Below, piece by piece: positions 534-53,900 of a DNA stretch of 64,000 nucleotides (positions within the stretch are counted from its first letter, which is position 1; each line of letters opens with the position of its first letter). The notes beneath the pieces were generated by a model. The model was not told where the DNA came from, searched no databases, and saw nothing but the letters and a program-made list of their open reading frames with translations. The DNA comes from Arenicola marina. Lineage: Eukaryota; Annelida; Polychaeta; Arenicolidae. Location: assembly GCA_964019135.1 (NCBI GenBank), contig OZ025257.1, positions 23,916,352 through 23,980,351 on the forward strand, written 5' to 3'. The position numbers and the translations under genes are program-made.

Positions 534-3500
534 CGCCATCTTTTTGACGTCGAAGGAGTGCAGCGTGGCGGAGCACACGACCATCTGGAGCCGCTTGCCG
601 TCCGGAGTGACGTTCGGGATCTGGCGGTGGATCCGGCTGATGAGGTCTCCGTACCCCGCAGACAACAGGCCGTCCTGAAGGAAGGCGAGCAGGACCCCGT
701 CATTACCTAGCGCAGGACGCCATGCCCCCCCCCCCCCCTCTCCGGTCAGAGCAGACCCGCGTCCTAGTATTAAACTCTGGACAGCGATTTTTCTGAAGTA
801 TGCAATATTTTACATATGCCCGCAAGAACTGTCCTGCTGCATTGTGGGAAGAAAACTAGTTCCTTGTGACCCATGACGTTGGATAGCGCACTCCGTGTGA
901 CAGAAATTGTGCGCGGCGGTCGACCGCGATGCGGCCCGGGATGTTGAGAGATATTGTACTTACGCACTGAGCCAGGATGTTTGGAGACCTTGTACTGACG
1001 CACTGAGCCTGGATGTTTGGAGACATTGTACTTACGCACTGAGCCAGGATGTTTGGAGACATTGTACTTACGCACTGAGCCAGGATGTTTGGAGACCTTG
1101 TACTGACGCACTGAGCCAGTATGTTTGGAGACATTGTACTTACGCACTGAGCCAGGATGTTTGGAGACATTGTACTTACGCACTGAGCCAGGATGTTTGG
1201 AGACATTATACTTACGCACTGAGCCAGGATGTTTGGAGACATTGTACTTACGCACTGAGCCAGGATGTTTGGAGATATTGTACTTACGCACTGAGCCAGG
1301 ATGTTTGGAGACATTATACTTACGCACTCAGCCAGGATGTTTGGAGACATTGTACTTACGCACTGAGCCAGGATGTTTGGAGACATTATTCTTACGCACT
1401 GAGCCAGGATGTTTGGAGACATTGTACTTACGCACTGAGCCAGGATGTTTGGAGACATTAGACTTACGCACTCAGCCAGGATGTTTGGAGATATTGTACT
1501 TACGCACTGAGCCAGGATGTTTGGATACATTATACTTACACACTGAGCCAGGATGTTTGGAGACATTGTACTTACGCACTGAGCCAGGATGTTTGGAGAC
1601 ATTGTACTTACGCACTGAGCCAGGATGTTTGGAGACATTGTACTTACGCACTGAGCCAGGATGTTTGGAGACATTATACTTACGCACTCAGCCAGGATGT
1701 TTGGAGATATTGTACTTACACACTGAGCCAGGATGTTTGGATACATTATACTTACACACTGAGCCAGGATGTTTGGAGACATTGTACTTACGCACTGAGC
1801 CAGGATGTTTGGAGAGATTGTACTTACGCACTGAGCCAGGATGTTTGGATACATTATACTTACACACTGAGCCAGGATGTTTGGAGACATTATACTTACG
1901 CACTGAGCCAGGATGTTTGGAGATATTGTACTTACGCACTGAGCCAGGATGTTTGGATACATTGTACTTACGCACTGAGCCAGGATGTTTGGAGACATTG
2001 TACTTACGCACTGAGCCAGGATGTTTGGAGACATTATACTTACGCACTCAGCCAGGATGTTTGGAGATATTGTACTTACGCACTGAGCCAGGATGTTTGG
2101 AGACATTATACTTACGCACTGAGCCAGGATGTTTGGAGATATTGTACTTACGCACTGAGCCAGGATGTTTGGATACATTGTACTTACGCACTCAGCCAGG
2201 ATGTTTGGAGACATTGTACTTACGCACTGAGCCAGGATGTTTGGAGACATTATACTTACGCACTCAGCCAGGATGTTTGGAGATATTGTACTTACACACT
2301 GAGCCAGGATGTTTAGATACATTATACTTACGCACTGAGCCAGGATGTTTGGAGACATTATACTTACACACTGAGCCAGGATGTTTGGAGACATTATACT
2401 TACGCACTCAGCCAGGATGTTTGGAGATATTGTACTTACGCACTGAGCCAGGATGTTTGGAGACATTATACTTACACACTGAGCCAGGATGTTTGGAGAC
2501 ATTATACTTACGCACTCAGCCAGGATGTTTGGAGATATTGTACTTACGCACTGAGCCAGGATGTTTGGAGACATTATACTTACGCACTGAGCCAGGATGT
2601 TTGGAGATATTGTACTTACGCACTGAGCCAGGATGTTTGGATACATTGTACTTACGCACTGAGCCAGGATGTTTGGAGACATTGTACTTACGCACTGAGC
2701 CAGGATGTTTGGAGACATTATACTTACGCACTCAGCCAGGATGTTTGGAGATATTGTACTTACACACTGAGCCAGGATGTTTAGATACATTATACTTACG
2801 CACTGAGCCAGGATGTTTGGAGACATTATACTTACACACTGAGCCAGGATGTTTGGAGACATTATACTTACGCACTCAGCCAGGATGTTTGGAGATATTG
2901 TACTTACGCACTGAGCCAGGATGTTTGGATACATTATACTTACACACTGAGCCAGGATGTTTGGAGACATTGTACTTACGCACTGAGCCAGGATGTTTGG
3001 AGAGATTGTACTTACGCACTGAGCCAGGATGTTTGGATACATTGTACTTACGCACTGAGCCAGGATGTTTGGAGACATTGTACTTACGCACTCAGCCAGG
3101 ATGTTTGGAGACATTATACTTACGCACTCAGCCAGGATGTTTGGAGATATTGTACTTACGCACTGAGCCAGGATGTTTGGAGACATTATACTTACGCACT
3201 GAGCCAGGATGTTTGGAGATATTGTACTTACGCACTGAGCCAGGATGTTTGGATACATTGTACTTACGCACTGAGCCAGGATGTTTGGAGACATTGTACT
3301 TACGCACTGAGCCAGGATGTTTGGAGACATTATACTTACGCACTCAGCCAGGATGTTTGGAGATATTGTACTTACACACTGAGCCAGGATGTTTAGATAC
3401 ATTATACTTACGCACTGAGCCAGGATGTTTGGAGACATTATACTTACACACTGAGCCAGGATGTTTGGAGACATTATACTTACGCACTCAGCCAGGATGT

Positions 3501-6500
3501 TTGGAGATATTGTACTTACGCACTGAGCCAGGATGTTTGGAGACATTATACTTACACACTGAGCCAGGATGTTTGGAGACATTATACTTACGCACTCAGC
3601 CAGGATGTTTGGAGATATTGTACTTACGCACTGAGCCAGGATGTTTGGAGACATTATACTTACGCACTGAGCCAGGATGTTTGGAGATATTGTACTTACG
3701 CACTGAGCCAGGATGTTTGGATACATTGTACTTACGCACTGAGCCAGGATGTTTGGAGACATTGTACTTACGCACTGAGCCAGGATGTTTGGAGACATTA
3801 TACTTACGCACTCAGCCAGGATGTTTGGAGATATTGTACTTACACACTGAGCCAGGATGTTTAGATACATTATACTTACGCACTGAGCCAGGATGTTTGG
3901 AGACATTATACTTACACACTGAGCCAGGATGTTTGGAGACATTATACTTACGCACTCAGCCAGGATGTTTGGAGATATTGTACTTACGCACTGAGCCAGG
4001 ATGTTTGGAGACATTATACTTACACACTGAGCCAGGATGTTTGGAGACATTATACTTACGCACTCAGCCAGGATGTTTGGAGATATTGTACTTACGCACT
4101 GAGCCAGGATGTTTGGAGACATTATACTTACGCACTGAGCCAGGATGTTTGGAGACATTGTACTTACTCACTGAGCCAGGATGTTTGGAGACATTGTACT
4201 TACTCACTGAGCCAGGACGTTTGGAGACATTGTACTTACGCACTGAGCCAGGATGTTTGGAGACATTGTACTTACGCACTGAGCCAGGATGTTTGGAGAT
4301 ATTGTACTTACGCACTGAGCCAGGATGTTTGGAGACATTGTACTTACGCACTGAGCCGGGATGTTTGGAGACATTGTACTTACGCACTGAGCCAGGATGT
4401 TTGGAGATATTGTACTTACGCACTGAGCCAGGATGTTTGGAGACATTGTACTTACGCACTGAGCCGGGATGTTTGGAGACCTTATACTTACGCACTGAGC
4501 CAGGATGTTTGGAGACCTTGTACTTACGCACAGAGCCAGGATGTTTGGAGACATTATTCTTACGCACTGAGCCAGGATGTTTGGAAACATTATACTTACG
4601 CACTGAGCCAGGATGTTTGAAGACATTATACTTACGCACTGAGCCAGGATGTTTGGAGATATTGTACTTACGCACTGAGCCAGGATGTTTGGAGACATTG
4701 TACTTACGCACTGAGCCAGGATGTTTGGAGACATTGTACTTACGCACTGAGCCAGGATGTTTAGATACATTATACTTACGCACTGAGCCAGGATGTTTGG
4801 AGACCTTGTATTTACGCACTGAGCCAGGATGTTTGGAGAGATTGTACTTACGCACTCGTCCAGGACGTAGAAGCGGCAGTTGGAGAGCTCCAGCTTGCCG
4901 GTTGAGATGAGGTCGTCCAAGCGACCCGGGGTGCCCACAACGATCTCAATCTATCAGCATGGTAAATAGGTCAGCATGGTTACTACTAATGCAACGCTTG
5001 TCAAAGCAAATAAAACCTAGAAGTAAAATACCTGACATTGTTCACTGTGTTGTTGCATATACATATATAGTACACCAAGCTCCAGTGGAATTATCTGTTT
5101 CCGAGTCACTCACGCGTATGGGAAGTAGATTACGCTTTATTAACTACAATACATGACTATCATAGCAAGTACTTAGGTAACTTTAATGTCATAAAGGGCC
5201 ACAGGCCTATGGTACACAAATATGTATTTGTGCCATACTTGAAGGAGGGGCTCCCGGCAGTAGCGAATAAAGTAGTCAATTTTACTTGATATGTGTTAAC
5301 AAGTGAAGCTGTCAGCTGTACGTACCCCATTGTAGAGGGCCTCAATCTGGTCCTTAATGCTGGTACCGCCCATTACCAGCAGCTCCCTGCAGGTACAGAC
5401 ATTACAAGCCATAGTCATTAAAACAAATGAGCGACATACATGATAACAAGTGGCCTCTTCAACTCATCACATCATTTATTTCATACCATATGAAATGGCG
5501 AAAAGTAGTGCAATTGTCGCAAAATAGTGGTATAGTCGTAAAATAAGATAAATGCCGTAAAATAATGACACTGTCGTCAAAGGCTGTTATGGTCAATAAT
5601 TGTCAATAGGACTTAGTTTCATGTTCTGGACTACAATTCCATTATGTATGTAGCAAGACCATACTGTTCCTTGTAGAAGTTGAAAAGTCAAGAATATAGA
5701 GCAGAACAGGCAAGACATTATTACCTAATGCGTTGGCCACTCAAATGCTTCTTGAACTTCTGTACTTGGGTAAAGGTCTAAAATAAAAATAACGAAATTG
5801 CGTTGCATTATGGCCGTCGCATATATTATAAAACAGTATTTTGCAAAGTTTGCGTCACAAGCAGCAAGTACACAAAATCACATATACCAAAACCAAGGAG
5901 CGTTGTTTTATACTTCGTGTTGATGGAACCAAGAATATAATTCTGACGCGGTGTGTGTATCACAAAATAATAACAGAAATGAAATCCAATGTCGGTATTC
6001 TACGCCGTTCTGGTGCACATGAAGGCTAAATTTGGCCAAGAAACCTCTGGAGACAAAGTGCCACAAAACAATACAAAAATGAAATTACCTGTTCTGCAAG
6101 TTCACGAGACGGCTGAAATATAGGAAAGAGAACCAGCGGTTAAAAAAATGAGTACTTAACATATGGTTATTTGGTTGGCGTCCGTCCGTTTGCGTAAAAC
6201 AATGGATTTCCATTATTGCTTATTTAGACACCTGGTGAATGAAATGCTAACAATAATATTTCATCTACAAAAGCGGATGTCCATTTATTTAGGACACAAC
6301 TTGTAAAGAAAATAATAATATATTATAATATAATATTTTAGCGCTGACCCCATTGATGTTGCCTTCATACCTACAAATTACAAATTTGCTGACATGGCAT
6401 AATGAGCCAGGTTAAGTGCCCCCGCCCGGTGGCGCCGCCTGGTGACTTACCTCTATAATGATGGCGTACGGGGCGTTAGGCTTGGGGGCCTTGCTCGCGG

Positions 6501-14156: not shown

Positions 14157-17100
14157 ATGAGTGGTTCTGGACTATCAAGAGCGGTATGCCAACTTATGAT
14201 AACATTATATTAGTACCGTACTAAGTTGTTAACGTACTGACTAAGAAAATCGCCACCGGCATGACCAGCGGCAGCGGTCTCTTGACTTGAGACTGTTGAG
14301 TGCGGTCTGAAACCGGTCGGCCTGGCGATGCAGCATGCATGCATATATAGTATGCAGGCTACACGTCCACCAGACCCACTCCCCAGAGCTCTGTCATTTT
14401 ACTGCGTTCATGTCTGCCAGCTTTCTTTCTTTTGCATTCATAATATATATAGTCTCCTCCTAGTCTTGTATCTTGATCACACAGGCGCCATAAATCAGCG
14501 GGGGGGTGGGGGGATACGCTGGTTTATAAGGGTACCCCCCCCCCCCACTGATTTACGGCGCCTGTGCTTGATCACCCCTGCATAGTTGCAACATGGCCGG
14601 AACAGTATGGTCTGGATAGCTTGACCTGATCATTTGTCATTCATGATTCTTAGTGCCCTCCTAAATTTATCCAGTTCCTTTCATATTTCAATAGCATGCA
14701 AATGTTTTCACTTGAAAGAGTAGTACCATTTAGCCATTATAATAATATTTTATATATACCAGATTTAGAGATATAATATACTGCCTAACATTTGCCATGC
14801 AGAGATGCAGTAAGCTATATTGGAAATTCTTATGTCTTTGATACATCTTTACTAGTTTATGATATATGTAAACCTACTATTATATATTAATTGTTATATC
14901 ATTTCTCTGGTATATACCTCCTAAAACCAAGAATTAATTTTTGAAGTAGAATACACCTGTTTACATTAATTCCACATTAATTTCGCTTATATCAAGTCTG
15001 AAAACCTGTTTAGTTATTAATGTTGTCCTTCTTATATTTCAGAAAAAAGTCAAGTCTGCTTTGCAAGTTTTTATAGGTGGTCATATTGTATATGGTGGGA
15101 TTGCAACTTACTTGGGAAATGACACCTGGTACAAGAAATTTCTCATGCCATGTGTCCAGCTGTTTGGAGCAGAAACAGCTCACTGGTTAGCTGTAAAAGC
15201 AGCAAAGTACAAACTGGTTCCAAAAGTTACATATGAAGACCCCAAAGAACTGGTAAGTAGAAAAAAAAATTATATAAAATATACCAGTATATGGTTATTG
15301 TATCTAGTGACTAAAGTAATAAATAAACTTGTTAGTACCAGTAATTAGTATAGCTATAGTGTACTTGTCTAACCAGCAGATGAACCCTTTGATAAACTAG
15401 TTATTAAATTGTTATTCTGTTAATGATTACCATATGACTAAAAAACATATTTATCAATTTGTTACTAAAAGTAGGTTGAAACAGCTTCTACATTTTTTCC
15501 TCTTTCTTTTCTTATCTGTGAATGTGTGGTCAAACTACTTCATTACATGACTATATCTGTAATTATCACATTTATGCCTGGTGCTGTTCCTATCTGGAAT
15601 ATGTGGAGAAAAAGTACTGTGGTGCTGCCTACAGTCTGTCACCACACATATAGCTCTTTCGGATCGCCGATGCCTCTTATCCAAATCAAAACTGAAAGCC
15701 ATCCCAAGCCTTCATGCCAGCAAGCTATTTCGCTACTCCATCAGTTGGTTTATTACTGACAGCAACTTCCCCATAGACATGTGTCCTTGCATGCAATTGA
15801 CATGCATTTAGTTTTCCATCTTATTCAAATACACATCTCTTATATATAATACTGTTATATACTATACATAGTGCACGCGAAGCCAATGGCTACATATAGT
15901 TTGTATATGCTATTGGAATAAAAGGCCGGATTTTTTGCAGCACACTGAAATATGGGGCCGCCGGTTCAGCAATCCTCTTGGAATAGCAGCCGGCTTTGAC
16001 AAGCAAGGAGAAGCAGTGGATGGGCTGTTAAAGATGGGCTTTGGCTTTGTGGAAGTTGGTTCTATCACTCCCCAGCCACAGGAGGGCAATCCCAAACCCA
16101 GGGTGTTCCGGCTGAAGGAAGACAATGCCATAATTAACAGGTGACATATGCTTAGCAAAACTGATATTAAATCTGCTCAAACAGTAATTTCACATCTTTT
16201 GGTCTCTAAATATTGGCTTTTATTGGCAGATACGGGTTCAACAGTGAAGGGCACGATGCTGTTTACGCCCGGTTAAAAGAGAGAACAGAAACGCGCCAAG
16301 GTCAGTGTTGGAGGCGCGTCGCCTGTTGCTGGAGCCACCTGAGAGTCTAACGGCACGTGAATCGGTAGTTCGAGCCCCGCTGTGGCCATGTCTGTGTGGT
16401 CGCAGGATAAAGATCCCATGTCCTTCTTCGCAAAGAGTAGGGGGCTACCCCCTGGGGCATGGCTCTACTCTCCCCTCTTTCTCCCATTGACTCGATATGA
16501 CCAAAAGCAACTGAATATACAACCAACCTGGTGCTTAATCCATGACATACTGCTTACCAACGTCCTATAAAATGTTGCTAAATGAACTACAATGGTAATA
16601 TTGCTACGTCGGTCATGTGCAATATTCCTACGCCGGATACGCAACATAATTGCAGCAAAAGACGCTTGGTGACGGTAAACTGCCTGGGTTTTCTGGAACC
16701 TTACAGGCCCCGAAGTGCCTGATGACCGTAATATGCTGAATGAGAATCTCTGGAGTCCTGATCGGCCCACGTTTGTCGGCATCAGGAAGCCAGGTATGGC
16801 TTTCAGTGGTAGACTTGTGCCTCAATTTGCTGCTATTAATGGACACAGACGTTATATTTTGAGGTTCTGTTCCATGTTGCGTCTTATATACATGTACCTA
16901 ATTGTACGCGTCTATGTTTATAACGAAATTATGATGTGGTATTTATTTATCGATTGGGTTTGCTCATGGTGTTTTTGCCCGTTTGTTGGTTTGATTTCTC
17001 TTCTCTTTTGAAAATTGATCTGTTGATTTTTTCCAGAAGGCGGAATACTAGGTATTAACGTGGGGAAGAACAAGACCTCCACCGATGCTGTTGGGGATTA

Positions 17101-20100
17101 CGTGTTAGGGGTGAGGAAGTTCGGCGAGCTAGCCGACTACCTGGTCATCAACGTCTCTAGTCCCAACACCCCGGGGCTGCGCACTATGCAAGGGAGGAAG
17201 CAACTCCAGGAGCTGGTAGATAAGGTAAGCGTCCGTGACCCAGCTCCTTCTGACCGCACGCTGCCAGGGTGGTGGGGGGGAAGAGGGCCAACAATTGTCA
17301 GGATATCTCCGTTATATCCGCTACTACGCGACTAGTAAATTTCTAACAATGTCGACGTGTTACGATTGTCATTATTAAACAGGACATTAACTGAACGTAA
17401 AAAAAAAAAAATTAACGTACAATTTAGGAGCGCGCAGGTTTTGATACATACCGCTTCTATAGTGCACTACACGAGTTATAAGATGTGCATTATACGGAAG
17501 TGATAGTTAATACTAATTATGCGAATCAATGGTTCTTGTTAATATGAATTTAATTTTCCATTATAATTGTTCAGGTTTTAGAAGAAAGAAGTAAATTGCC
17601 AGAAGGGAAGAGACCCCCCGTGTTGGTGAAAATAGCGCCCGATCTGACTGACCAGGATAAGCTGGACATCGCGGCGGTGCTGGCCCGGAGACAGGTAGCG
17701 CCACTAGTGTCTGCTTAACGTACCATTCGTTAGATTCGTTTATCAAAGATTGTTACTATACAGTGACGGATCCAGGGGGAACGTGCCCCCCCCCCCCCAT
17801 TTGACGCGAAAATAGGTGAAAACGGGCACGCCCCCACCCCCTTTTTTTGAAGAAGGGGACATAGGGAGCACAGTAACTATTCTTTCTGTACAACCTCACC
17901 AGCATCCTTCCCCTCCCCTTTTCTCACTGGATAGTACTTAAAGAAATAAGTAATAACCTTTCGTAAATTCCTGAATCCGCCAGTGTTATATTACACTATC
18001 TATATTTCGCTATATTATACTATTGTTGTTGTTGTTGTTTCCCAGGGGGGCGTCGACGGGCTTATCGTGACCAATACGACCATTACTCGACCAGACAACC
18101 TGAAGAGCGCCAACAAGGCGGAGACCGGGGGCCTGAGTGGGGAGCCAGTGCGACAGCTGTCCACCAACACCGTACGCGACATGTACCGTCTGACGCACGG
18201 TGAGTGCATGGCCATGCCGCTGGTTGGCATCCGTCCGTCTGCGTAGGGGGTTACCCGCGGGGACATAGCTCCACTCTCCCTTCCTTCTCCCATTTTACGC
18301 GGTATGACCAAAAGTGGTTAAAGCGTTCTGAATATACAACCAACCAACCGTCCGTTCGTCTGCAAAAGACGATGGATTTTTGCAGCTTTTGTTTGTAAGA
18401 GTAGTAAGATTTGTTCGCGGCATTTGCGCTTATGACTAAGTAAGCCTATCTGTGACCGACTGAGCTTACCGCAGTCGTCGCATCGATAACCTGTCGTTTG
18501 GTCTAGGTTTATACTCACTGGATGCCTAGATTGGCGTTTCAAATCCAGTTTCTCAAACCAGTGTCTGTCGTGGTGGGCCATTCCCTCTCGCACGAGATGC
18601 ATGGCCTTACAGAGTATCCCTATCTCTACAAAGTGGAGAGAACTCCACCCGTGTAGGGATAGCACGGATCGCTGAACGAACGTTGATGGGTTGATTAATT
18701 GATTTAAGTAGGAACCTTTAACCTGTGTCGGTCATATCGCGACAATCGGAAGGGTCAAGTTAGAGAGGATCGAGCCATGTCGCCGGGGGTAACCCCCTAC
18801 TCTGTGCAAAGAGAGACATGGGATCTTTATCCTGCACAGCCATAGACATTTGCACAAGTGGGGTGCGAACCCCACACCCGGTGGCCTAGTAGGTAGCTCG
18901 TTCGGTCATTGCCGAGTGGGCTCGCCCGATGCTTGGTTGGACCAACCTCGGTGTGAAGTGGTTGGTTAATCATAACGTCCTACATTACTTGTGAAAAAGT
19001 ATAGTACATGTTAGGAGATCGAAGCTATCTGCGTGGAACCTTTCGCTGGACCCCATGTCCGTCTTTTGGGTCGAGGCACCGCTGCAGACCGTAATGGGAT
19101 GTCCTACATCATTCGTTATGATAACATCAACAGTATATACATACATGGCACGTTCTACACGTTGGGTGCAGCTAGCCTATGTTCTCTCGCCTTTGCCTTG
19201 GTAGATTTTAGCGCATTATGATGACAGGTGTCAAATGTAAGCCAGTTAAATAATTCTTGAAAGGGTTTTCTTGTGGGTGGCAGTTGCATTTAATATATTG
19301 GGAACACAAGAACATAAAAAAAACACAGTGAATGTTTAAGTTTAAAAAGAGCTGCTGAGCGAATGACGTGGTCGCCTGCCCATCATAGGCTGTGGCGGGG
19401 TGTACAGCGGTCGGGATACCTGTTAGAATTAATTTGATATGTTATAATGGTTGCCTTCAGGTCGCGTGCCCATCATAGGCTGTGGCGGGGTGTCCAGTGG
19501 TCGGTAGGCCTATGACAATTAACTTGATATGTTATAATGGTTGCCTTCAGGTCGCCTGCCCACCATAGACTGTGGCGGGGTGTCAAGTGGTCGGGATGCC
19601 TATGAGAATTAATTTGATATGTTATAATGGTTGCCTTCAGGTCGCCTGCCCATTATAGGCTGTGGCGGGGTGTCCAGCGGTCGGGATGCCTATGAGAAGA
19701 TCCGGGCTGGAGCGTCCCTGATCCAGATATACACGGCCCTGGCCTACGACGGACCGCCCCTGGTATCCAGAATCAAGCGTGAACTCGCCGATATCTTACA
19801 GTGAGTCCCATCAAATATCTCATTGCTGGTAAATACATATAGATTGCTTGTTGGGAACTTTAATTAAAGTGCAATCCGTTGACATTATGACGTCATAGTA
19901 TCAACGGAAAACCAGGCGTTCTCTGGTCATTTCTGCTAAAGTTTTCGTGATACATTCCGTGTACAGTTTTCCACTATTTTTTTCATTCGTGCTTGTCATT
20001 TTAATTGGAAATATATATAATGTATAGATACAAGTTAATTGAATTGTATTACGGTACTCTTCCAGGAATGAAGGATTCAAGAATGTATCTGACGCTGTGG

Positions 20101-20129
20101 GTGCCGATTTCAAAGACCTGTCCTCGTGA
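14157..20129 (+). CDS. DHODH: Dihydroorotate dehydrogenase (quinone), mitochondrial
   Basis: Oxidises dihydroorotate to orotate with FMN and ubiquinone at the mitochondrial inner membrane, in de novo pyrimidine synthesis. Exons: 14157-14183, 15043-15252, 15941-16140, 16230-16300, 17037-17224, 17575-17694, 18046-18199, 19641-19800, 20066-20129. Together they give 397 residues plus stop; human DHODH has 395. An 87-nt candidate exon (16707-16793) is listed separately. The N-terminus is short and basic (KKVK), followed by one hydrophobic segment at residues 15-33, as in class 2 enzymes anchored in the membrane. Seen: [13 protein letters not shown] (96-108), [31 protein letters not shown] with the catalytic serine at residue 211, [20 protein letters not shown], and the FMN-phosphate segment [20 protein letters not shown]. 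Ends [13 protein letters not shown]. It is divergent from DDX1, with start codons 381 bp apart. Exon 9 is preceded by tandem copies of its own acceptor. Confidence 0.97.
14480..14566. mobile_element. Short MITE with 8-bp target duplication (hAT-like)
   Basis: It is 87 bp long. The ends are inverted copies starting CACAGGCGCC(A/G)TAAATCAG, each running into G or C homopolymers. It is flanked on both sides by CTTGATCA (14472-14479 and 14567-14574). An 8-bp target duplication is characteristic of hAT elements. It lies in DHODH intron 1; I see nothing else in that intron. Confidence 0.75.
16304..16528 (+). mobile_element. tRNA-derived SINE, family 1, copy B (head damaged)
   Basis: The B box (AGTTCGAGCC), body and tail (GAATATACAACCAACC) match copy A, but the A-box side is rearranged. 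It begins a few bases after the DHODH donor at 16301. Confidence 0.8.
16707..16793 (+). other. DHODH: Candidate symmetric cassette exon of DHODH (87 nt)
   Basis: It lies between the exon ending at 16300 and the exon starting at 17037. It has a TTACAG acceptor and a GTATGG donor, is 87 nt long (29 codons), and both ends have phase 1. Including or skipping it therefore keeps the DHODH frame. It contains no stop and would read [20 protein letters not shown] and onward. Known DHODH proteins have no such insert here; the direct join [16 protein letters not shown] matches the family. It could be an alternative exon, an exonised repeat (a SINE ends 180 bp upstream), or chance. Confidence 0.35.
17761..17985. 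mobile_element. MITE-like element with CAGTG(G/A)CGGATCC ends, copy 1
   Basis: The left end CAGTGACGGATCCAGGGGG and the right end CCTGAATCCGCCAGTG are inverted copies; length 225 bp. The interior has C runs and a GGGCACGCCCCC segment. Related copies lie at 37771, 42597 and 58103. No convincing target duplication is seen. It is in DHODH intron 7. Confidence 0.65.
18235..18349 (+). mobile_element. tRNA-derived SINE, family 1, copy C (3' half)
   Basis: Body and tail only, ending GAATATACAACCAACC. It is flanked on both sides by a CCGTCCGTCTGC-like sequence, suggesting insertion into the LINE tail that follows. In DHODH intron 8. Confidence 0.75.
18350..18665 (-). mobile_element. LINE 3' fragment with terminal CxxC...HxxxC motif
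   Basis: The minus-strand open frame includes [20 protein letters not shown] followed by RKC. This zinc-finger-like motif occurs at the very C-terminus of several non-LTR retrotransposon proteins. Only the 3' end of the element is present. In DHODH intron 8. Confidence 0.55.
18725..18872 (-). mobile_element. tRNA-derived SINE, family 1, copy D (partial, diverged)
   Basis: Matches the body of family 1 (GAGCCATGTCGCCGGGGGTA, GGGATCTTTATCCTGC) and ends at a B-box-like GTGCGAACCCC. More diverged than the other copies. Confidence 0.65.
19371..19640 (+). repeat. 90-bp tandem repeat of the DHODH intron 8/exon 9 junction
   Basis: Three units (19371, 19461, 19551) each carry about 56 bp of exon 9 start (GTCGCCTGCCCATCATAGGC...) followed by about 34 bp of intron end (GATATGTTATAATGG, TTGCCTTCAG). 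The true exon at 19641 follows as the fourth exon copy. Two decoy acceptors, at 19460 and 19550, match the real one exactly over the last 20 intronic bases. Each partial exon copy meets an in-frame stop, so only the last acceptor yields a full enzyme. Confidence 0.95.
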
Positions 20130-21901: not shown

Positions 21902-22241
21902 AAATGAAGGAATAGACGCCTCGTGCGGTAAGATGAAGGCGTCGAACGACGCCTCGTGCGGTAAGATGAAAGCGTCGAACGACGCCTCGTACGGGAAGAT
22001 GAAGGCGTCGAATGACGCCCCGTACGGTAAGACGAAAGCGTCGAACGACGCCTCGTACGGGAAGATGAAGGCGTCGAATGACGCCCCGTACGGTAAGATG
22101 AAAGCGTCGAACGACGCCTCGTACGGGAAGATGAAGGCGTCGAACGACGCCCCGTACGGTGAGATGAAGGCGTCGATCGATGCCTCATACGGTAATTTGA
22201 AGGCGTCGAACGACGCCTCGTACGGGAAGATGAAGGCATCG
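21902..22241. repeat. 33-bp minisatellite, about 10 copies
   Basis: The unit contains GCGTCGAACGACGCC and TACGGGAAGATGAAG. It is open on both strands because 33 is a multiple of three (11-residue repeats such as KASNDASYGKM). I do not call a gene: the open frames start and end in unrelated sequence. Confidence 0.92.
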
Positions 22242-22413
22242 AAGTTAAAATGGTTATATAGACTCGTATCAGTCGCTGAAATTACTAAACACATTGCAAA
22301 TGCTGCTCGGTGGGGAATAAATACAGCCACTTCAGTAACAACAGACGTCTTCCAACAACGGCCACCCGTCCATAGCGACCAAATACGTTTCACAAACCAG
22401 ACCGCATATAACT

Positions 22414-24184: not shown

Positions 24185-27100
24185 TCACTGGAAGGAGGCG
24201 CGGACCGTGCGGCCGTTGAGTGGCATGGGCGGACGGTAGTTCTCCACGATCTTGCCTGCGAGCTCATCGCTTGGCACGGCCTCCCCGTCCTTGATACTGT
24301 TGAGGGACCTCAACTTCTCCAACTGTCCGAACATATAAATATGTGACATTAAATATAAATAGTGACATAAATATAAATATCTGACGTGTATATAAATATG
24401 TGACATAAATATAAATATCTGACGTATATATAAATATGTGACATAAATGTAAATAGTGACATAAATATAAATTTGAGACATAAATATATGTGACGTATAT
24501 ATAAATGTGACATAAATATGTAAATGTAAATATGTGACATAAATTTAAATATGTGACATAAGTATAAATATGTGACATAAGTATAAATATGTGACGTATA
24601 TATAAATATGTGCCATAAATATAAATATGTGCAATAAATAAAAAATATGTGACATAAGTATATATATGTGACGTATATATAAATAGGTGACATAAATATA
24701 AATTTGAGACATAAATATACATATGACATAAATATACATATGACATAAATATAAATATGTGCCATAATATAAATATGTGAAAAAAATAAATATGTGACAT
24801 AAACATAAATATGTGACATAAATATCTAACAAATTATATGTCATAGATATATTTCTAATATTTCAAACAATTACCATGGATACATATACGTTTTTTCATA
24901 TTTTAAATAATTGTCATGTATACGAGAAACATCCTTTTTGTATGCCAAAGGAGCCTTAACTGATTGTTAGTAAACAATTTTGCATTCTTGTCTTGATCGT
25001 GGTTTCCAATTATTTTTTCCAACGTTATGTATAACAAGTAAGGGAACGAATAATGGACACCTCTACTATGTCGACCCCCCTCCCCCCCCCTCCCATGGCA
25101 TGATGCAGTACCGCCGACCCCCCCCCCCCCCCCCCGACATGCGAGGTCTATCTATCCCAGACCGCCAACGACATATGGCGTTCCTCTTCCCCAGACCCCA
25201 CACGACATAAAGGGTTCCTGCACCCCAGAACTACCCCCCCCCCCACCCCACCCCACCAACGGCATAAGGGGCTCGCTCCTGTACATCAGACTCACCACCC
25301 TACCCGGCATAACACATTAAGTTCCTGTACCCCATCTCCCACCAATGACATAAGGGGTTTCTGTACCCCGGACCCCCAGACTCCACCCCTCTTACCTGCT
25401 CCTCAGACAGCTCTACTGGGTCTTTGAAGAGCACCCACGTCACGGACTCATAGCAGGGTGGGGTGGTCAGGGACCCGGGGTACGTCCAGTACTTGGAGCG
25501 ATCCTCTGTAACCATGAAGCAAAACAGAAAAACTGTAGAAACGATGAAATGTTGTATCGTATTTGGTCGAGTCATATCATGCATCATTACAATTACAACG
25601 CACTAAAGGGAAGCATGGCTTATTGGGGGGGAAATGATGTATATGATAGTCGATCAGTCGTCTAGCCATGTCATTAATATCGGTATAGAGATAAGCATTG
25701 AGGAAAACTCAATATATAACATATCTTTCTTTATTTCGTCGAGCCATGTCATGAATTATTACAACGGACTCTGAATATAGCAGAACTAATTTCGTTACAG
25801 CAAGTGCTCTGAGTCCCCGATATTATCATGCAGTTTAATTCTCATCTCATCCCCTCACGCCGTTTCGAGCATCAATTATTTCTCAAGAACGAGGTAACCT
25901 TTTGCACATTCCGGTACCTTTGTGTTGTTGACTCATCTTATATTCAACGTAATTCCATCAATGTTGAGTGCCATGTGCCATTTAGTATCAAAAAAACTAT
26001 TCACATTACTACGCTCATGAAGTGCATTATTGACGAATGAGAGTGGCACGCATACGTCAGCCCGAGACAACATCGGCTGCGGAGCTACAATAGATTCCAA
26101 AATTGACTGAGCGCAGCTAAATGGTTCGAGAAAAGGTTGTTTCTATGCGAAACAGTTTGCAAATTCCGAATATGAAAGTCTGAGAAGTCCCAGAGGGGCC
26201 AAAGAGTGAGTAAGATGCCCTTGCATCAAATCACAAATAATTAAATCTGCCTCTAAAGAGCCGATTATTTCATTTGACGCAACAGAGATGCGAAATGTCG
26301 ACCCTAGATTTAATGCCTCCCCCTAAACAAAAGTGTGGGGGGGGGGGGGGTCAGAGTTTTATTCAATAATTTTGTTTCACATATTTCTACCTAAACACTG
26401 CATCTTTTCAACCTATCTCGACTTTCACATTGCATCATCCCAAACGACCATGACAGCAACACACAACACGACTTCCCCCCTCCCTCCTCTCCTTCTGATC
26501 CTGCATCCCCCCCCCCCCCCTCTACCCTTGCACCCCCCCCCCCTCCTCTACCCTTGCACACTCCCCCCCCCCTACCTAGAGGGCCTCCCTTGTAATGTCT
26601 GGCGGACGGAGCGGTTCTTACCAGGCAACAGACCCGCGGGATCCAGTTCTCCATGCAGATCCACCGTGTCCCCACTGAAGGGAATCCGGTCAAGGTGCTT
26701 AGACAGCGTCTTGAACCAGGGGTTCTCCGCCCCAGCCTGTAACCATGGCAATTGTAACTATGAATGAAGCATCTCTATGATGGATAACAGACATATTAGA
26801 TACATTGCATATCATTTCTTTGCTTTCTATATCCGCTCTAGATAAATGCATTGACCTTGATGATGAGTACTGCTTTGTGTTCGTTGTTCATGTTGCCATC
26901 ATCGTCAATTAACATCTGTTTATAGAATAATGTTTCACCTATTTTTACTTATGCCATATGATTTAGTTCTTAGGTTAAATGCCTGGACCTATTTGGTTTC
27001 TTATCGCATACAAGGTGATCCTCTACACGTGCATTCGCTGTTGAAATAAATAATGTTTATAAAAACTAAATGACCTTGACCTATATCAGGTCGACGTGAC

Positions 27101-30100
27101 GTCACAATTGCATATCATTTTGATCAATAGATTTATTTCGAGGTAAAATGTGTTTACAAGTATTTTTGCCGCGCCATTATCAACTACCAAAAAAGGGTCA
27201 TTCAAACTCACACCCTTTGTTAAAACTCGACATCATGTAATATTTCATCGATAATTACCTTGAGCAGAACTCCGAGCACACACAAACCCTTGTCCGCCGA
27301 GGCCGCCTCACCGACGCTCCCAAACAGATTTGTGTTGTAATGGACCAAATGGAACTGCGGAGAGCGAAAAAAAAACAAAGCCTTCTTGACGACGAGATCA
27401 AACATTCTATGTGTCCACAAAACAGATTCAAGTATCAAATATAAAGTAACATTTTTTTTTAATTACATGCCTCATGGTTTCATCAGTTACATGGCTTCCC
27501 TCTACACAATATACCGGATTCACCCAGTGACCGACTAGGTAGCGTGTTCGACTATGGTTGGGTGTGTTCTGTTATACTTTTTATGCGCTTTTGTGCATCC
27601 ATGTGCTACCCAAAACTGCGCCAAGGAACCTCCCGGGGACGATTAAGAATGGATGGCTTGATGAAACATGCCCCAGATTAGAGATTATATGCCCAGGCCG
27701 GGATTCGAACCTATGACCTATTGATTGGTTAGCGGTCTAGCGCGCTAACCACTACACCAGAGAGGCTCTTGCCCATGGCTGAAGCAGGGTCCCTGGGAAC
27801 TGACCTCGGCGGCGAAGGCCTTGCCATCCACGGTGTGCTCTGACCCGTGGTCGCTGGCGTTTCCCCAGTGAAAGTGAAACTGCGCGGCCTCGTACTTGTG
27901 CGAGAGTGGTCCACCTTCCAGCGCTGGAAGAACGTACACAACATTGCGTTTAAAATACAACTGTACCATGGTGTGAACAGTGGACTTTGATATGGAGCGG
28001 TGTAGTAGCTCTTGCTGAAAGTTACACTGTCGTAAAGTCGTTTTGTTATGTATTATGTACTTGTACCGCAACTCTGTAAGCAGTATCAGATAACATTGTG
28101 CTTAAATATGCAGGAGCTAGACTCCCGATCCTCACTCCGGCTCATCTTACTCATCGCGCTTTATATACAACTTTCCTCTCTCTCATCTCTCGTTCTATCT
28201 GTGTCTCTACTCTCTCTCTCTCTCTCTCTCTCCTCTTTCTTTCTACCTATCTCTCCTTCCTCTCTTTCTATGTCTCCTCTCTCCTTCAATGTCTCTCCTC
28301 TCTCTTTCTGTCTCTCTCCTCTCTTTCTATCCCCTCTTTCTCTCTTTCAATCTCCCTCCTCTCTTTCTATCTCCCACATCCCTTTCTATTTCTCTCCTCT
28401 CTCTTTCTATCCCCCTCCTCTCTTTCTATCTGTCTCCTCTCTTTCTATCTCCCTCCTCTCTTTCTATCTCTCTCCTCACTCTTTCTATATCTCTGTCTTT
28501 CTCCTCTCTTTCTATCCCCTCTCTCCCTCTTGCTATCTCCCTCATCCCTTTCTACCTCTGTCCTCTCTCTTTCAGTCTCCCTCCTCTCTTTCTATCCCCT
28601 CTCTCTCTCTCCTCTCTTTCTATCCCCCCTCTCTCTCTTTCTGTCTCCCTCCTCTCTCTTTCTATCAACTCTCTCTCTCTTTCTATCTCTCTCCTCTCTC
28701 TTTCTATCTCTCTCCTCTCTTACTATATCTCTCCTCTCTCCCTCTATCTCTCTCCCGTCTCATTCCATCACCCTCCTCTCTTTCCTATCTCTCTCCTATC
28801 GTCTCTCCTCTCTCCCTCGCTCTCTCTTCTCTTGCTATCTCTGATTTCTCCCTCTCTTTCTATCTCTCCTCATCTCTTTCATATCTTTCTCTCTCTCTCT
28901 CTCCCTCTTTCTAACAGGCTACAGCACAGTACTCACACGATCCCTGTCCGTCGATGGTGACCTGGGCGGAGTGGCCGTTGTTGGTCACGGACTTTGAGTT
29001 GGCCGGCACGTACGTGGTGCGGAAGGGAGTCTCGGCCAGCGTGCTGTCGTACAGAGCCTCGGCGGTCTGCACATCGATGGGAGACTGGCGAGTCCCCGCG
29101 GCAGCCGGCGCCACCTCCACCCAGCGGTCGGGTCCTGCCGGGGGAGAGAGGGGGGGAGAGGGACGAAACATCAGCAAGGGTTGGTTGTATATTCAGGACG
29201 CTTTAACTACTGTTGGTCATATCGCGTCCATTTGAGAAGGAAGGGAATGGAGCCACGTCCCCGGGGGTAACCCCCCTACTCATTGCGGAGAAGGACATGG
29301 GATCTTTATCCTGCGACCACATAGACATGGCCACAGCAGGGCGCGAACCACCGATCCACGTGCCCTTAGGCTCTCAGGTGGCCAGAGTACTCAGGGCGAG
29401 CGCTCTAACACACTGAGCCACCGGGCCGGCTCCGGGGCGAGAGGGAGAGAGGGACGACACATCAGCAGGGGACAATTATATAACTAGGCTTCCACGCGTG
29501 GCAAGTTTTCATCGACATCCAGACGGTAAGTTTGATATTTTGGGGCGTTTTTTCTGCATCTTTGCTGTTTGATACTACTACTCTTTGCAAAAGAGTGATA
29601 CATATGTCACCACATCAAGAAAGATACGGGTCTCCCGGTAGAGGGCGCTCTGCGCATCGTATGGTGAGTGCAAATATATAAACATGACACGTGACGTGCG
29701 GTAGCGTCTAGCGCGTAATGAGTATTCAGCCGACCTGGCAAAAACCGGAAGCGTGTAACATGTATTTACTCGACATTTGGTTCAACATTACTCAGGGGTA
29801 TCTTTTCTACTTACGCTCTGGACCATCGTTTCACCATGCTTTGCAACAAATACTGGTAAAGAAGTCCAGCTTTTAACGCACTTCGAACAGCAGCTATCGT
29901 TTTAACTTTGTCATGGAATGTCCGGAACTTTTTCTTTATGCGAGAAACGAATACCAAATTTGTATTCCTTACAAATACGTTACCACGGCTAATTTCTATA
30001 CAATAATGAAGACAACAGATGACAAGATGTTATGTAACCTGGCAGCCTACACGTATCATGGTAGTATGATTATGGATTATTATGGTGTGCACACGCGTCG

Positions 30101-30619
30101 GTTGTTGGTTGTATATTCGAATAACTACTGTTGGTCATATCGCGCCAAATCGGGTCATGTCCCCATGGTAAACCCCTACTCTTGGCGAAGAAGGACATGT
30201 GATCTTTATCCTGCGACCACACTGTCATGGCCACAGCGGGGCTCGAACCATCGATCCACGTGCCGTTAGGCTCTCAGGTGGCCAGAGCACTCAAGGCGAG
30301 CGCTCTAACCCACTGAGCTACCGCGCCGGCCCCTGCACATGCATTGCACGGAAAATATCGTTTCGTTTTCACGGATAATTGGCAACATACTTCTGACCTC
30401 AGCAAAAATCTCAGGTCATCAGATAATTTCAATGCATTGTATCAGATTATATTACTATTATCTGCAATATTAATTTAATATACCAAAAGCCACTCAATAG
30501 TAAGCTTCATACCGACTTCCTTTTCAAGTTTTCAAGGATGGCTCTACATCTACCTTGCTGCTCTATTGGGTTTCTAATGACGACTTACCATTATCTTTGG
30601 TGTATCCCCAGTGAGCCAT
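24185..30619 (-). CDS. Cytosolic-type alpha-carbonic anhydrase
   Basis: Interconverts CO2 and bicarbonate using zinc. Coding exons in transcript order: 30589-30619, 28937-29134, 27805-27923, 27259-27354, 26622-26736, 25396-25505, 24185-24322. Phases join to 268 residues plus stop (human CA2 has 260). No signal peptide or C-terminal anchor is seen: it starts [15 protein letters not shown], as cytosolic forms do. Catalytic residues are present: zinc ligands His93 and His95 in QFHFHWG and His118 in EFHLVHYN, the proton-shuttle histidine in NNGH (65), the gate glutamate in GSEHTVD (105), and threonine in SLTTPP (200). RQSPIDV and [12 protein letters not shown] are family signatures. It resembles the CA1/2/3/7/13 group, but I do not assign a vertebrate symbol because lineage duplications are common. 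Introns carry an AT-rich minisatellite (intron 6), a pyrimidine tract (intron 2) and SINEs. An upstream TTTCTAG at 30684-30690 may be the acceptor of a 5' UTR exon. Confidence 0.95.
24330..24830. repeat. AT-rich minisatellite of about 18-20 bp in carbonic anhydrase intron 6
   Basis: About 25 copies of an ATATGTGACATAAATATAA-like unit with frequent length change. It begins about 10 bp from the acceptor of the last coding exon and fills the branch-site region. Confidence 0.9.
27560..27772 (-). mobile_element. tRNA-derived SINE, family 2, copy 1
   Basis: On the minus strand it has an A box (TGGTGTAGTGGTTAGCGC) and a B box (GGTTCGAATCCCGG), then a body with CCCAGATTAT-like and CCAAGGAACC-like blocks and a tail with GCACAAAAGCGC. 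The head-body order matches 57785-57965. It ends 32 bp from carbonic anhydrase exon 3. Confidence 0.75.
28160..28912. repeat. Pyrimidine tract of CTCTCTTTCTAT repeats in carbonic anhydrase intron 2
   Basis: About 750 bp of nearly pure C/T on the plus strand, built from degenerate CTCCTCTCTTTCTATCTC units. It is purine-rich in the transcript. The long serine/leucine open frames here are by-products. Confidence 0.92.
29178..29432 (-). mobile_element. tRNA-derived SINE, family 1, copy E (near full length, with flanking duplication)
   Basis: Complete head-to-tail copy. The flanks (about 29153-29177 and 29443-29468) both read GAGAGGGACGA followed by ACATCAGCA, which fits a long target-site duplication. 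Inserted in carbonic anhydrase intron 1, 44 bp from the exon 2 acceptor. Confidence 0.85.
30103..30332 (-). mobile_element. tRNA-derived SINE, family 1, copy F
   Basis: Same head, B box and tail as copy E, with a short deletion near the tail. In carbonic anhydrase intron 1. Confidence 0.85.
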
Positions 30620-43482: not shown

Positions 43483-44879
43483 TATCTTGAAGAATGGATC
43501 GAAAAACAGACCTAGCCGTGTTTTATTAATGTAAGTGTGCGTTATTCAAATAAAGAACGGTAAAACAGTGCTTTATTTTAATAATGAACGGAAAAACTGT
43601 GCATTATCCAGATAAAGAACAGTTGTTAATACTGTTAGAACAGTTGTTGACACTCGTCAAGTGTCACGGTATAATCAGTCGAGCTGAGCTGAGCGAAGCC
43701 CAGTTGGCTGGTGTTGACAGAACTTGCCAATTTCAAGACAAACAATGGACTGCACAAGTCAATGTTAAGCACCAAAGGGGCGGGGGTTAGACATACATTT
43801 CTTATTATATCTGTCATATCGCTTTTCAGGGGGCGATGTTTTCACGAAACTAAGAAGCAATGACTTCCAAAATGTCTACTTCATCCACGCCTTCCCACCC
43901 CTACCCTCCCCCCTGGGGCTTCACGATGACGAACCGTTGTTTCCACAATGTGCCTCATGTATTCGTCGGGCAGTGCAACTGACACAATAGTCACTTCCTG
44001 TGTCCAAACGTGAGCACATGTCAGGCCTTGTTGTAACAATTTTATAAGTACGTTAAAGAACTCGCTGTCGTGCATTCCCCAAATAAGCCACTCGACGCTA
44101 TCGCGTCTCGTGCTTTATTTTGGCGAATGCACTCCAGCTCGTTATTTAACTAGTACATAATGGTAAAGGAGAATCAGGAACGGTTCGCATCGAAAAATTA
44201 GATTAATTACCATTAATTATAATAACTTTAGTATTACACCTGGTTATTATTGAATATTATAACGGCGACCATTTCTAGAATACAGGATTGGACACGGTTC
44301 AAATACTTTTATCTTACTTTTAGGGGTGACTTTTACTATTGGCCTCTAACAGCCATTACATATGTGCACTTTGTCTCTCACAATCAGGCCATAGAATGAA
44401 CGTACCCTCTATATATATACATATAATATATAGCGCTGAAGTGAGCTATATTTGTCTGCCTGAGAGCAGTGCAAATAAGGTCAATTGTGAATACGGTCCC
44501 TGCATACTTGAACGTTATCACAGCCGCTGTCTGTTTTGATCTATTTGTCAAGATAGTTTTATATCAGGGCTGGCTAGGCGACTGCTTAGCAGCCTGTAAC
44601 AGTTTCTTCTTTCTCTCCTCTTATCCGAACTGCCCTTGGAGATACCCGTGCTCGTTATTGTGAAGGTCAAGCCAACCTGAAGGTGACGCTTAGAGATCTC
44701 GCGCATTCGACTTGTCCTTGCGGTCACACGCCAAGGACAACTAAGTGAAAGGCGTCTTTCTTTTGCCAGCATGTATTGATCGTTTTGATTGGATTGCGGT
44801 TTAGCGACCATCAACCCCCCCCCCCCTCCACGTCTCGCGGGGGGATAGGGGGAGGGGGGAGGCATTATTATACAAACAT
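43483..44879. other. Intergenic, no gene recognised
   Basis: AT-rich DNA. Two related pieces near 43530-43620 (GGTAAAACAGTGCTTTATT and GGAAAAACTGTGCATTATCC) look like a short duplication. Confidence 0.5.
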
Positions 44880-46264
44880 GGTGAGGGGGTTCTCTGGTTG
44901 CCTAAGAGAGCGTCGGGGGTTCCGTGATGCCTGAGAGAGCGTGGTGAGGGGGTTCCCGTGATGCCTGAGAGAGCGTGGTGAGGGGGTTCCCGTGATGCCT
45001 GAGAGAGCGTGGTGAGGGGGTTCCCGTGATGCCTGAGAGAGCGTGGTGAGGGGGTTCCGTGATGCCTGAGAGAGCGTGGTGAGGGGGTTCCCGTGATGCC
45101 TGAGAGAGCGTGGTGAGGGGGTCCCGTGATGCCTGAGAGAGCGTGGTGAGGGGGTTCCCGTGATGCCTGAGAGAGCGTGGTGAGGGGGTTCCCGTGATGC
45201 CTGAGAGAGCGTGGTGAGGGGGTTCCCGTGATGCCTGAGAGAGCGTGGTGAGGGGGTTCCCGTGATGCCTGAGAGAGCGTGGTGAGGGGGTTCCCGTGAT
45301 GCCTGAGAGAGCGTGGTGAGGGGGTTCCCGTGATGCCTGAGAAAGCGTGGTGAGGGGGTTCCCGTGATGCCTGAGAGAGCGTGGTGAGGGGGTTCCCGTG
45401 ATGCCTGAGCGTGCGTGGTGAGGGGGTTCCCGTGATGCCTGAGAGAGCGTGGTGAGGGGGTTCCCGTGATGCCTGAGAGAGCGTGGTGAGGGGGTTCCCG
45501 TGATGCCTGAGAGAGCGTGGTGAGGGGGTTCCCGTGATGCCTGAGAGAGCGTGGTGAGGGGGTTCCCGTGATGCCTGAGAGAGCGTGGTGAGGGGGTTCC
45601 CGTGATGCCTGAGAGAGCGTGGTTAGGGGGTTCCCGTGATGCCTGAGAGTGCGAAGTGAGGGGGTTCCCGTGATGCCTGAGAGAGCGTGGTGAGGGGGTT
45701 CCCGTGATGCCTGAGAGAGCGTGGTGAGGGGGTTCCCGTGATGCCTGAGAGAGCGTGGTGAGGGGGTTCCTGTGATGCCTGAGAGAGCTTGGTGAGGGGG
45801 TTCCCGTGATGCCTGAGAGAGCGTGGTGAGGGGGTTCCCGTGATGCCTGAGAGTGCGTGGTGAGGAGGTTCCCGTGATGCCTGAGAGAGCGTGGTGAGGG
45901 GGTTCCCGTGATGCCTGAGAGTGCGTGGTGAGGGGGTTCCCGTGATGCCTGAGAGAGCGTGGTGAGGGGGTTCCGTGATGCCTGAGAGAGCGTGGTGAGG
46001 GGGTTCCCGTGATGCCTGAGAGAGCGTGGTGAGGGGGTTCCCGTGATGCCTGAGAGTGCGTGGTGAGGGGGTTCCCGTGATGCCTGAGAGAGCGTGGTGA
46101 GGGGGTTCCCGTGATGCCTGAGAGAGCGTGGTGAGGGGGTTCCCGTGATGCCTGAGAGAGCGTGGTGGGGGGGTTCCCGTGATGCCTGAGAGAGCGTGGT
46201 GAGGGGGTTCTCTGGTTGCCTAAGAGAGCGTGGTGAGGGGGTTCCCGTGATGCCTGAGAGAGCG
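44880..46264. repeat. 34-bp minisatellite, about 41 copies
   Basis: The unit reads GTGATGCCTGAGAGAGCG then TGGTGAGGGGGTTCCC. A few copies lack one base. Both edges carry the variant TCTCTGGTTGCCTAAGAGAG. The 473-residue minus-strand open frame is a by-product (three units give a 34-residue period). Confidence 0.97.
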
Positions 46265-50747: not shown

Positions 50748-50947
50748 NNNNNNNNNNNNNNNNNNNNNNNNNNNNNNNNNNNNNNNNNNNNNNNNNNNNN
50801 NNNNNNNNNNNNNNNNNNNNNNNNNNNNNNNNNNNNNNNNNNNNNNNNNNNNNNNNNNNNNNNNNNNNNNNNNNNNNNNNNNNNNNNNNNNNNNNNNNNN
50901 NNNNNNNNNNNNNNNNNNNNNNNNNNNNNNNNNNNNNNNNNNNNNNN
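50748..50947. other. Assembly gap (200 N)
   Basis: Exactly 200 N, a conventional size for a gap of unknown length. It stands at the edge of the next tandem array, so the array is probably longer than shown. Confidence 1.
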
Positions 50948-53900
50948 TACCCACCCACTCCCCCTCCTCACCATCTCTCCACCATTACACACCCCCTCCC
51001 CCTCCTCGCCATCTCTCCACCATTACACACCCCCTCCCCCTCCTCGCCATATCTCCACCATTACACACCCTCTCCCCCTCCTCGCCATCTCTCCGCCATT
51101 ACACACCCCCTCCCCCTCCTCGCCTTCTCTCCACCCTTACACACCCTCTCTCCCCCTCCTCGCCATCTCCCCCCACCCTTACACACCCTCTCCCCCTCCT
51201 CGCCATCTCTCCACCCTTACACACCCTCTTTCCCTCCTCGCCATCTCTCCACCATTACACACCCCCTCCCCCTCCTCGCCATCTCTCCACTCTCACACAT
51301 CCCCTCCCCCTCCTTGCCTTCTCTCCACCCTTACACAGCCCCTCCCCCTCCTCGCCATCTCTCCACCCTTACACACCCCCTCCCCCTCCTCGCCATCTCT
51401 CCACCCTTACACACCCCCCTCCCCCTCCTCGCCATCTCTCCACCATTACACACCCCCTCCCCCTCCTTGCCTTCTCTCCACCCTTACACACCCCCTCCCC
51501 CTCCTCGCCATCTCTCCACCATTACACACCCCCTCCGCCTCCTCGCCTTTTCTCCACCCTTACACACCCCCTCCCCCTCCTCGCCATCTCTCCACCCTTA
51601 CACACCCCCTCCCCCTCCTCGCCTTCTCTCCACCCTTACACACCCCCCTCCTCGCCATCTCTCCACCCTTACGCACCCTCTTTCCCTCCTCGCCATCTCT
51701 CCACCGTTACACACCCCCTCCCCCTCCTCGCCATCTCTCCACTCTTACACATCCCCTCCCCCTCCTTGCCCTTCTCTCCACCTTTACACACCCCCTCCCC
51801 CTTCTCGCCATCTCTCCACCCTTACACACTCCTCCCTCCTCCTCCCATCTCTCCACCGTTACCCACCCCCTCCCCCTCCTCGCCATCTCTCCACATTTAC
51901 ACACCCCTCTCCCCCTCCTTGCCTTCTCTCCGCCCTTACAACACCCCCCTCACCCTCATCGCCATCTCTCCACTGTTACACATTCCCCTCCCCCTCCTTG
52001 CCTTCACTGCACCCTTACACACCCCCTCCCCTCCTCGCCATCTCTCCACCCTTACACACCCCCTCCCCCCTCCTCGCCATCTCTCCACTCTTACACATCC
52101 CCTCCCCCTCCTTGCCTTCTCTCCACCCTTACACACCCCCTCCCCCTTCTCGCCATCTCTCCACCCTTACACACCCCTCCCCCTCCTCGCCATCTCTCCA
52201 CCCTTACACACCCCTCTCCCCCTCCTTGCCTTCTCTCCACCCCTTACACACCCCCTCCCCCTCCTCGCCATCTCTCCACTCTTACACATCCCCTTCCCCC
52301 TCCTTGCCTTCTCTCCACCCTTACACACCCCCCTCCCCCTCCTCGCCATCTCTCCACCCTTACACATCCCCTCCCCCCTCCTTGCCTTCTCTCCACTCTT
52401 ACACACCCCCTCCCCCTCCTCGCCATCTCTCCACCGTTACACACCCCCTCCCCCTCCTCGCCATCTCTCCACTCTTACACATCCCCTCCCCCTCCTCGCC
52501 ATCTCTCCACCATTACACACCCTCTCCCCCTCCTTGCCTTCTCTCCACCCTTACACACCCCCTCCCCCTCCTCGCCATCTCTCCACCATTACACACCCTC
52601 TCCCCCTCCTTGCCTTCTCTCCACCCTTACACACCCCCCTCCCCCTCCTCGCCATCTCTCCACTCTTACACATCCCCTCCCCCTCCTTGCCTTCTCTCCA
52701 CCCTTACACACCCCCTCCCCCTCCTCGCCATCTCTCCACCCTTACACACCCCCTCCCCCTCCTCGCCTTCTCTCCACCCTTACACACCCTCTCCCCCTCC
52801 TCGCCATCTCTCCACCCTTACACATCCTCTTTCCCTCCTCGCCATCTCTCCACCGTTACACACCCCCTCCCCCTCCTCGCCATCTCTCCACTCTTACACA
52901 TCCCCTCCCCCTCCTTGCCTTCTCTCCACCCTTACACACCCCCTCCCCCTCCTCGCCATCTCTCCACCCTTACACATCCCCTCCCCCTCCTCGCCTTCTC
53001 TCCACCCTTACACACCCCCTCCCCCTCCTTGCCTTCCCTCCACCCTTACACATCCCCTCCCCCTCCTCGCCATCTCTCCACTCTTACACATCCCCTCCCC
53101 CTCCTCGCCATCTCTCCACCATTGCACACCCCCTCCCCCTCCTCGCCATCTCTCCACCGTTACACACCCCTCTCCCCCTCCTCGCCATCTCTCCACCTTT
53201 ACACACCCCTCCACCTCCTCGCCATCTCTCCACCCTTACACACCCCCTCCCCCTCCTCGCCATCTCTCCACCGTTACACACCCCTCTCCCCCTCCTCGCC
53301 ATCTCTCCACCCTTACACACCCCTCCCCCTCCTCGCCATCTCTCCACCCTTACACACCCCCTCCCCCTCCTCGCCATCTCTCCACCCTTACACACCCTCT
53401 TCCCCTCCTCGCCATCTCTCCACCATTACACACCCTCTCCCCCTCCTTGCCTTCTCTCCACTCTTACACATCCCCTCCCCCTCTTTGCCTTCTCTCCACC
53501 CTTACACACCCCCTCCCCCTCCTCGCCATCTCTCCACCCTTACACACCCCCTCCCCCTCCTCGCCATCTCTCCACCCTTACACACCCCCCTCCCCCTCCT
53601 CGCCATCTCTCCACCATTACACACCCCCTGCCCCTCCTTGCCTTCTCTCCACCCTTGCACACCCCCTCCCCCTCCTCGCCATCTCTCCACCCTTACACAC
53701 CCCCTCCGCCTCCTCGCCACCTCTCCACCATTACACACCCCCTCCCCCTCCTCGCCATCTCTCCGCCATTACACATCCCCTCCCCCTCCTTGCCTTCTCT
53801 CCACCCTTACACACCCCCTCCCCCTCCTCGCCATCTCTCCACTCTTACACACCCCCTCCACCTCCTCGCCATCTCTCCACCCTTACACACCCCCTCCCCC

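Follow-up and report, generated by a model that had tools for sequence, protein, structure and literature searches.

A very large minisatellite spanning a splice-donor boundary of DDX1 in Arenicola marina

The DDX1 intron and its repeat units

The window, i.e., the whole stretch of DNA analysed here, comprises 64,000 nucleotides of Arenicola marina. On its minus strand it holds exons of DDX1 between 11843 and 534, as located by tblastn with human DDX1 as query; this set comprises neither the first coding exon nor a number of others, and at its 3' end the gene continues past the window. Two of these exons flank the intron of interest. The upstream one (4852..4950, minus strand, 99 nt) ends within the DEAD-box motif II with ...RFYVLDEC, the next one (534..674, minus strand, 141 nt) has the donor GCG/GTAAGT. 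Both lengths are multiples of 3. Joined from 4852 to 674, the two exons encode 80 residues, 79 of which are covered by a gap-free alignment to DDX1 of PDB 8tbx (E 4.9e-36), and they also match the Pfam family DEAD above its cut-off. The initial annotation had named DDX1 as the host gene and had placed the authentic donor, TGC/GTAAGT, at the exon end and the acceptor at 675/674; the gene is supported by the gap-free match and by Pfam, and both splice sites are supported, the donor at 4852/4851. Since the junction of this donor, donor 0, with 674 aligns gap-free to DDX1, a functional DDX1 mRNA should require donor 0.

The intron measures 4,177 nt, and 3,913 of them (94%) are array. TRF, applied to the window, reports a tandem array at 939-4856 with 0% indels, which bears out the earlier estimate of some 109 copies of 36 bp at 932-4857. 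With the exon end taken as the register, the array falls without any indel into 109 units of exactly 36 bp: the authentic junction (unit 0) plus 108 copies, all in perfect register and each of the 109 differing from the consensus at 0-5 positions. Unit 0 (4866-4831, minus strand) is made up of the last 15 nucleotides of the exon (GTCCTGGACGAGTGC) and the first 21 of the intron; it contains the authentic donor. Units 1-108 (4830-943, minus strand) have the consensus ATCCTGGCTCAGTGC/GTAAGTACAATGTCTCCAAAC and keep GTAAGT in 103 of 108 cases. Unit 1 (4795..4830, minus strand), the bearer of the nearest decoy donor, reads GTAAAT. Units 18 and 19 (4147..4218, minus strand; TGAGTAAGT) contain the only two stops in the exon frame, at 4206 and 4170. 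The non-array 3' part of the intron (675..942, minus strand) opens with a few bases of a partial unit and ends in the acceptor CTTCCTTCAG.

The claim that each unit carries the full 14-mer TGCGTAAGTACAAT was too strong, as just 54 of the 109 do so; TGCGTAAGT is present in 86. That most units hold a donor is nevertheless true of the donor itself, with GTAAGT being intact in 104 of 109. All these 104 are found on the sense strand of the array and none on the opposite one, while the rest of the window contains 31 on both strands together, which corresponds to 0.26 per kb per strand. By these counts, the donors of the array are not due to chance. The array is free of N. The sole N run of the window (50748-50947) consists of 200 N directly before a 38-bp array at 50948-53956 and is probably an assembly gap. 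In viral contigs, the unit pattern had 0 matches, and a peptide pattern derived from the joined DDX1 exons matched 10 stretches, none of them coding for a relative. An exact pattern of 21 bases, taken from an interspersed repeat, had 0 matches in genome contigs as well as in viral contigs. A search of Rfam yielded no match reaching the gathering score. Among the titles listed in literature searches, of which only one named DDX1, none was on the DDX1 array.

Arrays at splice boundaries

In the initial annotation, no comparable intron was known to have been described. This is wrong: the mirages of amphioxus and the donor-bearing minisatellites of human ABCA7 and IFI6 have been published (PMC3087553, PMC3902484, PMC5954066, PMC4526556). 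Amphioxus mirages are duplications that resemble minisatellites and take in an intron/exon boundary, which may lie at either side (PMC3087553). They are known in Adh3, in the globins BflGb6 and BflGb9, in PGBD5 and in TnC (PMC3087553, PMC3902484); PGBD5 is added by a paper that also cites TnC (PMC3902484). Data on Adh3 and RT-PCR of the globins suggested regular splicing; haplotypes differ in length, and somatic instability is mentioned with reference to work on Adh (PMC3087553). The globin units measure 150-160 bp and number 6 and 3 in two haplotypes of BflGb6, as opposed to some 109 units of 36 bp in DDX1; those of Adh3 range from 10 to 72 bp, to be compared with the 36 bp of DDX1. A related case is intron gain by tandem genomic duplication, the splice sites stemming from the duplicated boundary or from AGGT segments (PMC3087553; see also PMC4974935). 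The DDX1 array is alike in its duplicated boundary, which does not imply that the intron itself is new.

A second boundary-spanning array lies in DHODH, a gene on the plus strand with exons at about 15040-20114. This array (19370..19698, plus strand) has a 90-bp unit in about 3.7 copies, according to TRF, and the unit consists of the last 33 nt of an intron and the first 57 nt of an exon. The authentic acceptor, 19640/19641, sits in the last copy. Upstream of it there are three copies of the exon start, whose exonic parts match 51-52 of 57 bases; two carry the intron part as well (33 and 32 of 33 bases), the first does not (7/33 bases). A stop in the DHODH frame is found in two of the three. 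By its sequence, the DHODH array is an acceptor-type mirage.

Of 49 splice boundaries in the three genes inspected, 2 are spanned by one of the 11 arrays compared, which were taken from the TRF list; the boundaries were located by hand, their list is incomplete, and one DDX1 donor is one base off. Four more boundaries are within 60 nt of an array but not spanned, and two of these, in carbonic anhydrase, are within 25 nt. The carbonic anhydrase gene (24188-30613, minus strand) was recognised by tblastn with human CA2 as query; the arrays at 24333-24852 and 28174-28913 come within about 10 and 23 nt of splice boundaries of this gene, but span neither. Donor-like motifs also occur in arrays of other places. 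The one at 44879-46264 has a 34-bp unit in 41 copies and TGGTGAGG in its consensus, and no adjoining gene was recognised there by eye. Another, at 21915-22243, has a 33-bp unit in 10 copies, several with CGGTAAGATG, and lies between the 3' ends of DHODH and carbonic anhydrase. A dispersed repeat of about 160-230 bp, possibly a SINE, is seen at 291-520, 16334-16491, 29225-29433 and 30156-30336, the other copies being 82-86% identical to that at 291-520. ARAGORN found no tRNA in the window.

Donor strength and reading frame

In the reading that we consider likely, the DDX1 array is a mirage, an intronic minisatellite across an exon/intron boundary, and its copies are largely passive passengers. 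The claim that most copies are as strong as the authentic donor is supported by predicted U1 pairing: the authentic donor has a duplex energy of -7.1, and 95 of the 108 downstream units are equal or stronger. The authentic donor is middling also in comparison with 22 other scored donors of DDX1, DHODH and carbonic anhydrase, 14 of which are stronger and 8 weaker by predicted U1 pairing; the 22 include two alternative placements of one boundary, and three placements without GT were left out. So middling a sequence does not by itself account for the authentic donor prevailing over 95 copies that are as good or better. Exon definition, acting on an exon of 99 nt, would favour the first donor, and the junction of donor 0 with 674 would be the only one to yield an uninterrupted helicase. 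We infer that donor 0 dominates and expect the downstream donors to be used at a low level, each adding 12 residues per unit inside motif II. Unit 1, the nearest decoy, has a predicted energy of -1.9, which makes its pairing the weakest in the array. That the first of the 108 should also be the weakest was noticed after the fact and is a hint at most.

The donor core is changed in 5 of the 108 copies. Counted over all units, variation affects 5 of 648 core cells, versus 143 of 3,240 elsewhere in the unit; it is, however, mostly confined to six columns with recurrent variants, and chance alone would keep these columns out of the 6-column core with a probability of about 0.30, which is evidence neither for nor against selection on the core. 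We reject the idea that RNA structure hides the decoys. The exon with units 0-4 folds at -68.6 (shuffle mean -66.8, SD 5.6) and five consensus units fold at -34.2 (-37.0, SD 4.2), and neither is stabler than its 100 mononucleotide shuffles. An array of U1 sites that suppresses premature polyadenylation would be without an obvious target, as neither AATAAA nor ATTAAA occurs on the sense strand of the 4,177-nt intron.

Read in the exon frame, the array has just the two stops mentioned in 1,304 codons and is stop-free across units 1-17. Use of one of the 17 decoy donors of these units would enlarge motif II by 12 to 204 residues, inserted between DEC and D and free of stops; use of a donor from unit 18 onward would bring in a stop. 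Of the other two frames, one has 18 stops in 1,303 codons, the third 156. Since a second frame is thus nearly open, too, the open exon frame is not evidence of selection. Nor could a meaning be assigned to the 12-residue repeat translated from the array: its Pfam match remained below the cut-off (19.2 vs 27 bits).

Donors borne by repeat units have also been described in human genes. The original work on the splice donors of the IFI6 (6-16) minisatellite is reportedly that of Turri et al. in 1995. In IFI6, two downstream repeat units act as donors, which leads to three mRNA species (PMC4526556); the DDX1 array likewise consists of units most of which carry a donor. In ABCA7, the first GT of a 25-bp VNTR in intron 18 is the donor of exon 18, and it is with this GT that the unit starts; the alleles comprise about 12 to 427 slightly varying units and reach up to about 10.7 kb (PMC5954066). 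The donor one unit downstream is used, whereby one unit is retained, and skipping of exon 19 is tied to expanded alleles (PMC5954066). The arrays of ABCA7 and DDX1 both take in and repeat the GT of the authentic donor. In contrast, the next donor of the 25-bp unit shifts the frame, while the 36-bp unit of DDX1 keeps it, and ABCA7 is backed by RNA evidence, the DDX1 array by sequence.

As expanded ABCA7 arrays change splicing, calling the DDX1 copies passive may be wrong. The array could instead tune DDX1 output: the longer it is, the more often splicing would shift to downstream donors or leave out the next exon. With a 36-nt unit that is stop-free for 17 units, part of the aberrant transcripts would stay in frame, evade nonsense-mediated decay and encode a helicase with 12n residues between DEC and D. 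The precedent of ABCA7, the open exon frame and the flanking exons of 99 and 141 nt fit this possibility. Yet, a unit length is divisible by 3 in one of three cases by chance, another frame has few stops as well, and there is no sign of selection for openness. We regard tuning as unlikely.

Motif II itself is altered. At the exon junction (4852-4854 with 672-674), the joined DDX1 exons encode VLDECD, where PDB 8tbx has VLDEAD; motif II of this DDX1 is DECD, not DEAD. DECD is found in the helicases UAP56/DDX39, which makes activity of the present DDX1 plausible. The change from Ala to Cys takes two base changes, and TGC stands at the corresponding place in 90 of the 108 copies. Both facts have been taken as the basis for a quite improbable, more ambitious proposal, namely that the array jointly rewrites and tunes its host gene: an exchange between array and exon would have overwritten the last exon codon, turning DEAD into DECD, the first 17 units, in frame and stop-free, would give a length-dependent pool of DDX1 isoforms, their motif II being enlarged by 12n residues, and GTAAAT would have disabled the nearest decoy donor. 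The TGC of the exon may have been written by exchange with the array, or the unit may have inherited it from the exon.

Origin and meaning of the array

The last 15 bases of the exon match the exonic half of the unit in 11 positions at the true register and in 0-6 at the other 35. Outside the array, 11 of 119,644 15-mers in the window match at least as well. If the terminal TGC is left aside, 8 of 12 bases match, a level reached by 297 of 119,662 12-mers, and upstream the match fades to 13/18 and 13/24. The exon stretch concerned encodes VLDE, which is shared with DDX1 of 8tbx and argues for copying most likely from the exon to the array; the unit is, thus, most likely a copy of the exon junction. 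The incomplete match, 11 of 15, speaks against a mirage. The unit contains exonic and intronic sequence of the real boundary by similarity, not by identity. An alternative is an unrelated satellite that landed in the intron and has GTAAGT in its unit by accident; in its favour, the array as given by TRF extends no more than 5 bases into the exon, and these 5 alone are shared perfectly and contiguously with the unit. Such a satellite we hold to be very improbable, because the 15-base match occurs at the exact register, unit 0 is in phase with the copies without an indel, and none of the 16-mers of the consensus unit is found elsewhere in the window.

Internally, the array holds exact recurrences: runs of 20, 16 and 12 units are found again 30, 13 and 17 units away. 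Recent duplication of blocks by unequal exchange would be the simplest reading, and the recurrences lend indirect support to an instability of length such as that of amphioxus mirages. The longest of them (20 units or 720 bp, 30 units apart) could also stem from a mis-joined repeat, yet an assembly that inflated the copy number is hardly credible in view of 26 different types of unit, ordered in a pattern that is partly shifted, and an array without N, which, if halved, would still hold more than 50 donors.

The preferred reading, a mirage with largely passive copies, would then run as follows. A stretch of 36 bp over the DDX1 exon/intron junction, 15 exonic and 21 intronic bases, would have been duplicated in tandem, and unequal exchange would have expanded this junction copy to 108 extra units, until they filled 94% of the intron. 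Judged by its units, the DDX1 array is a real and very large boundary-spanning minisatellite that is ordinary in kind, the kind being known from lancelets and humans. Worth following are its unusual details: the in-frame geometry, the altered motif II and, also, the nearest decoy being the weakest donor.

The array is a natural experiment, in which roughly a hundred donors, all predicted to be of nearly the same strength, follow one another in fixed steps of 36 nt. As its unit keeps the frame, unlike that of ABCA7, part of the mis-spliced products should not be lost to decay and could thus be counted. Finally, two boundary-spanning minisatellites in a 64-kb window, in adjoining genes, one donor-type and one acceptor-type, suggest that such arrays can be frequent.
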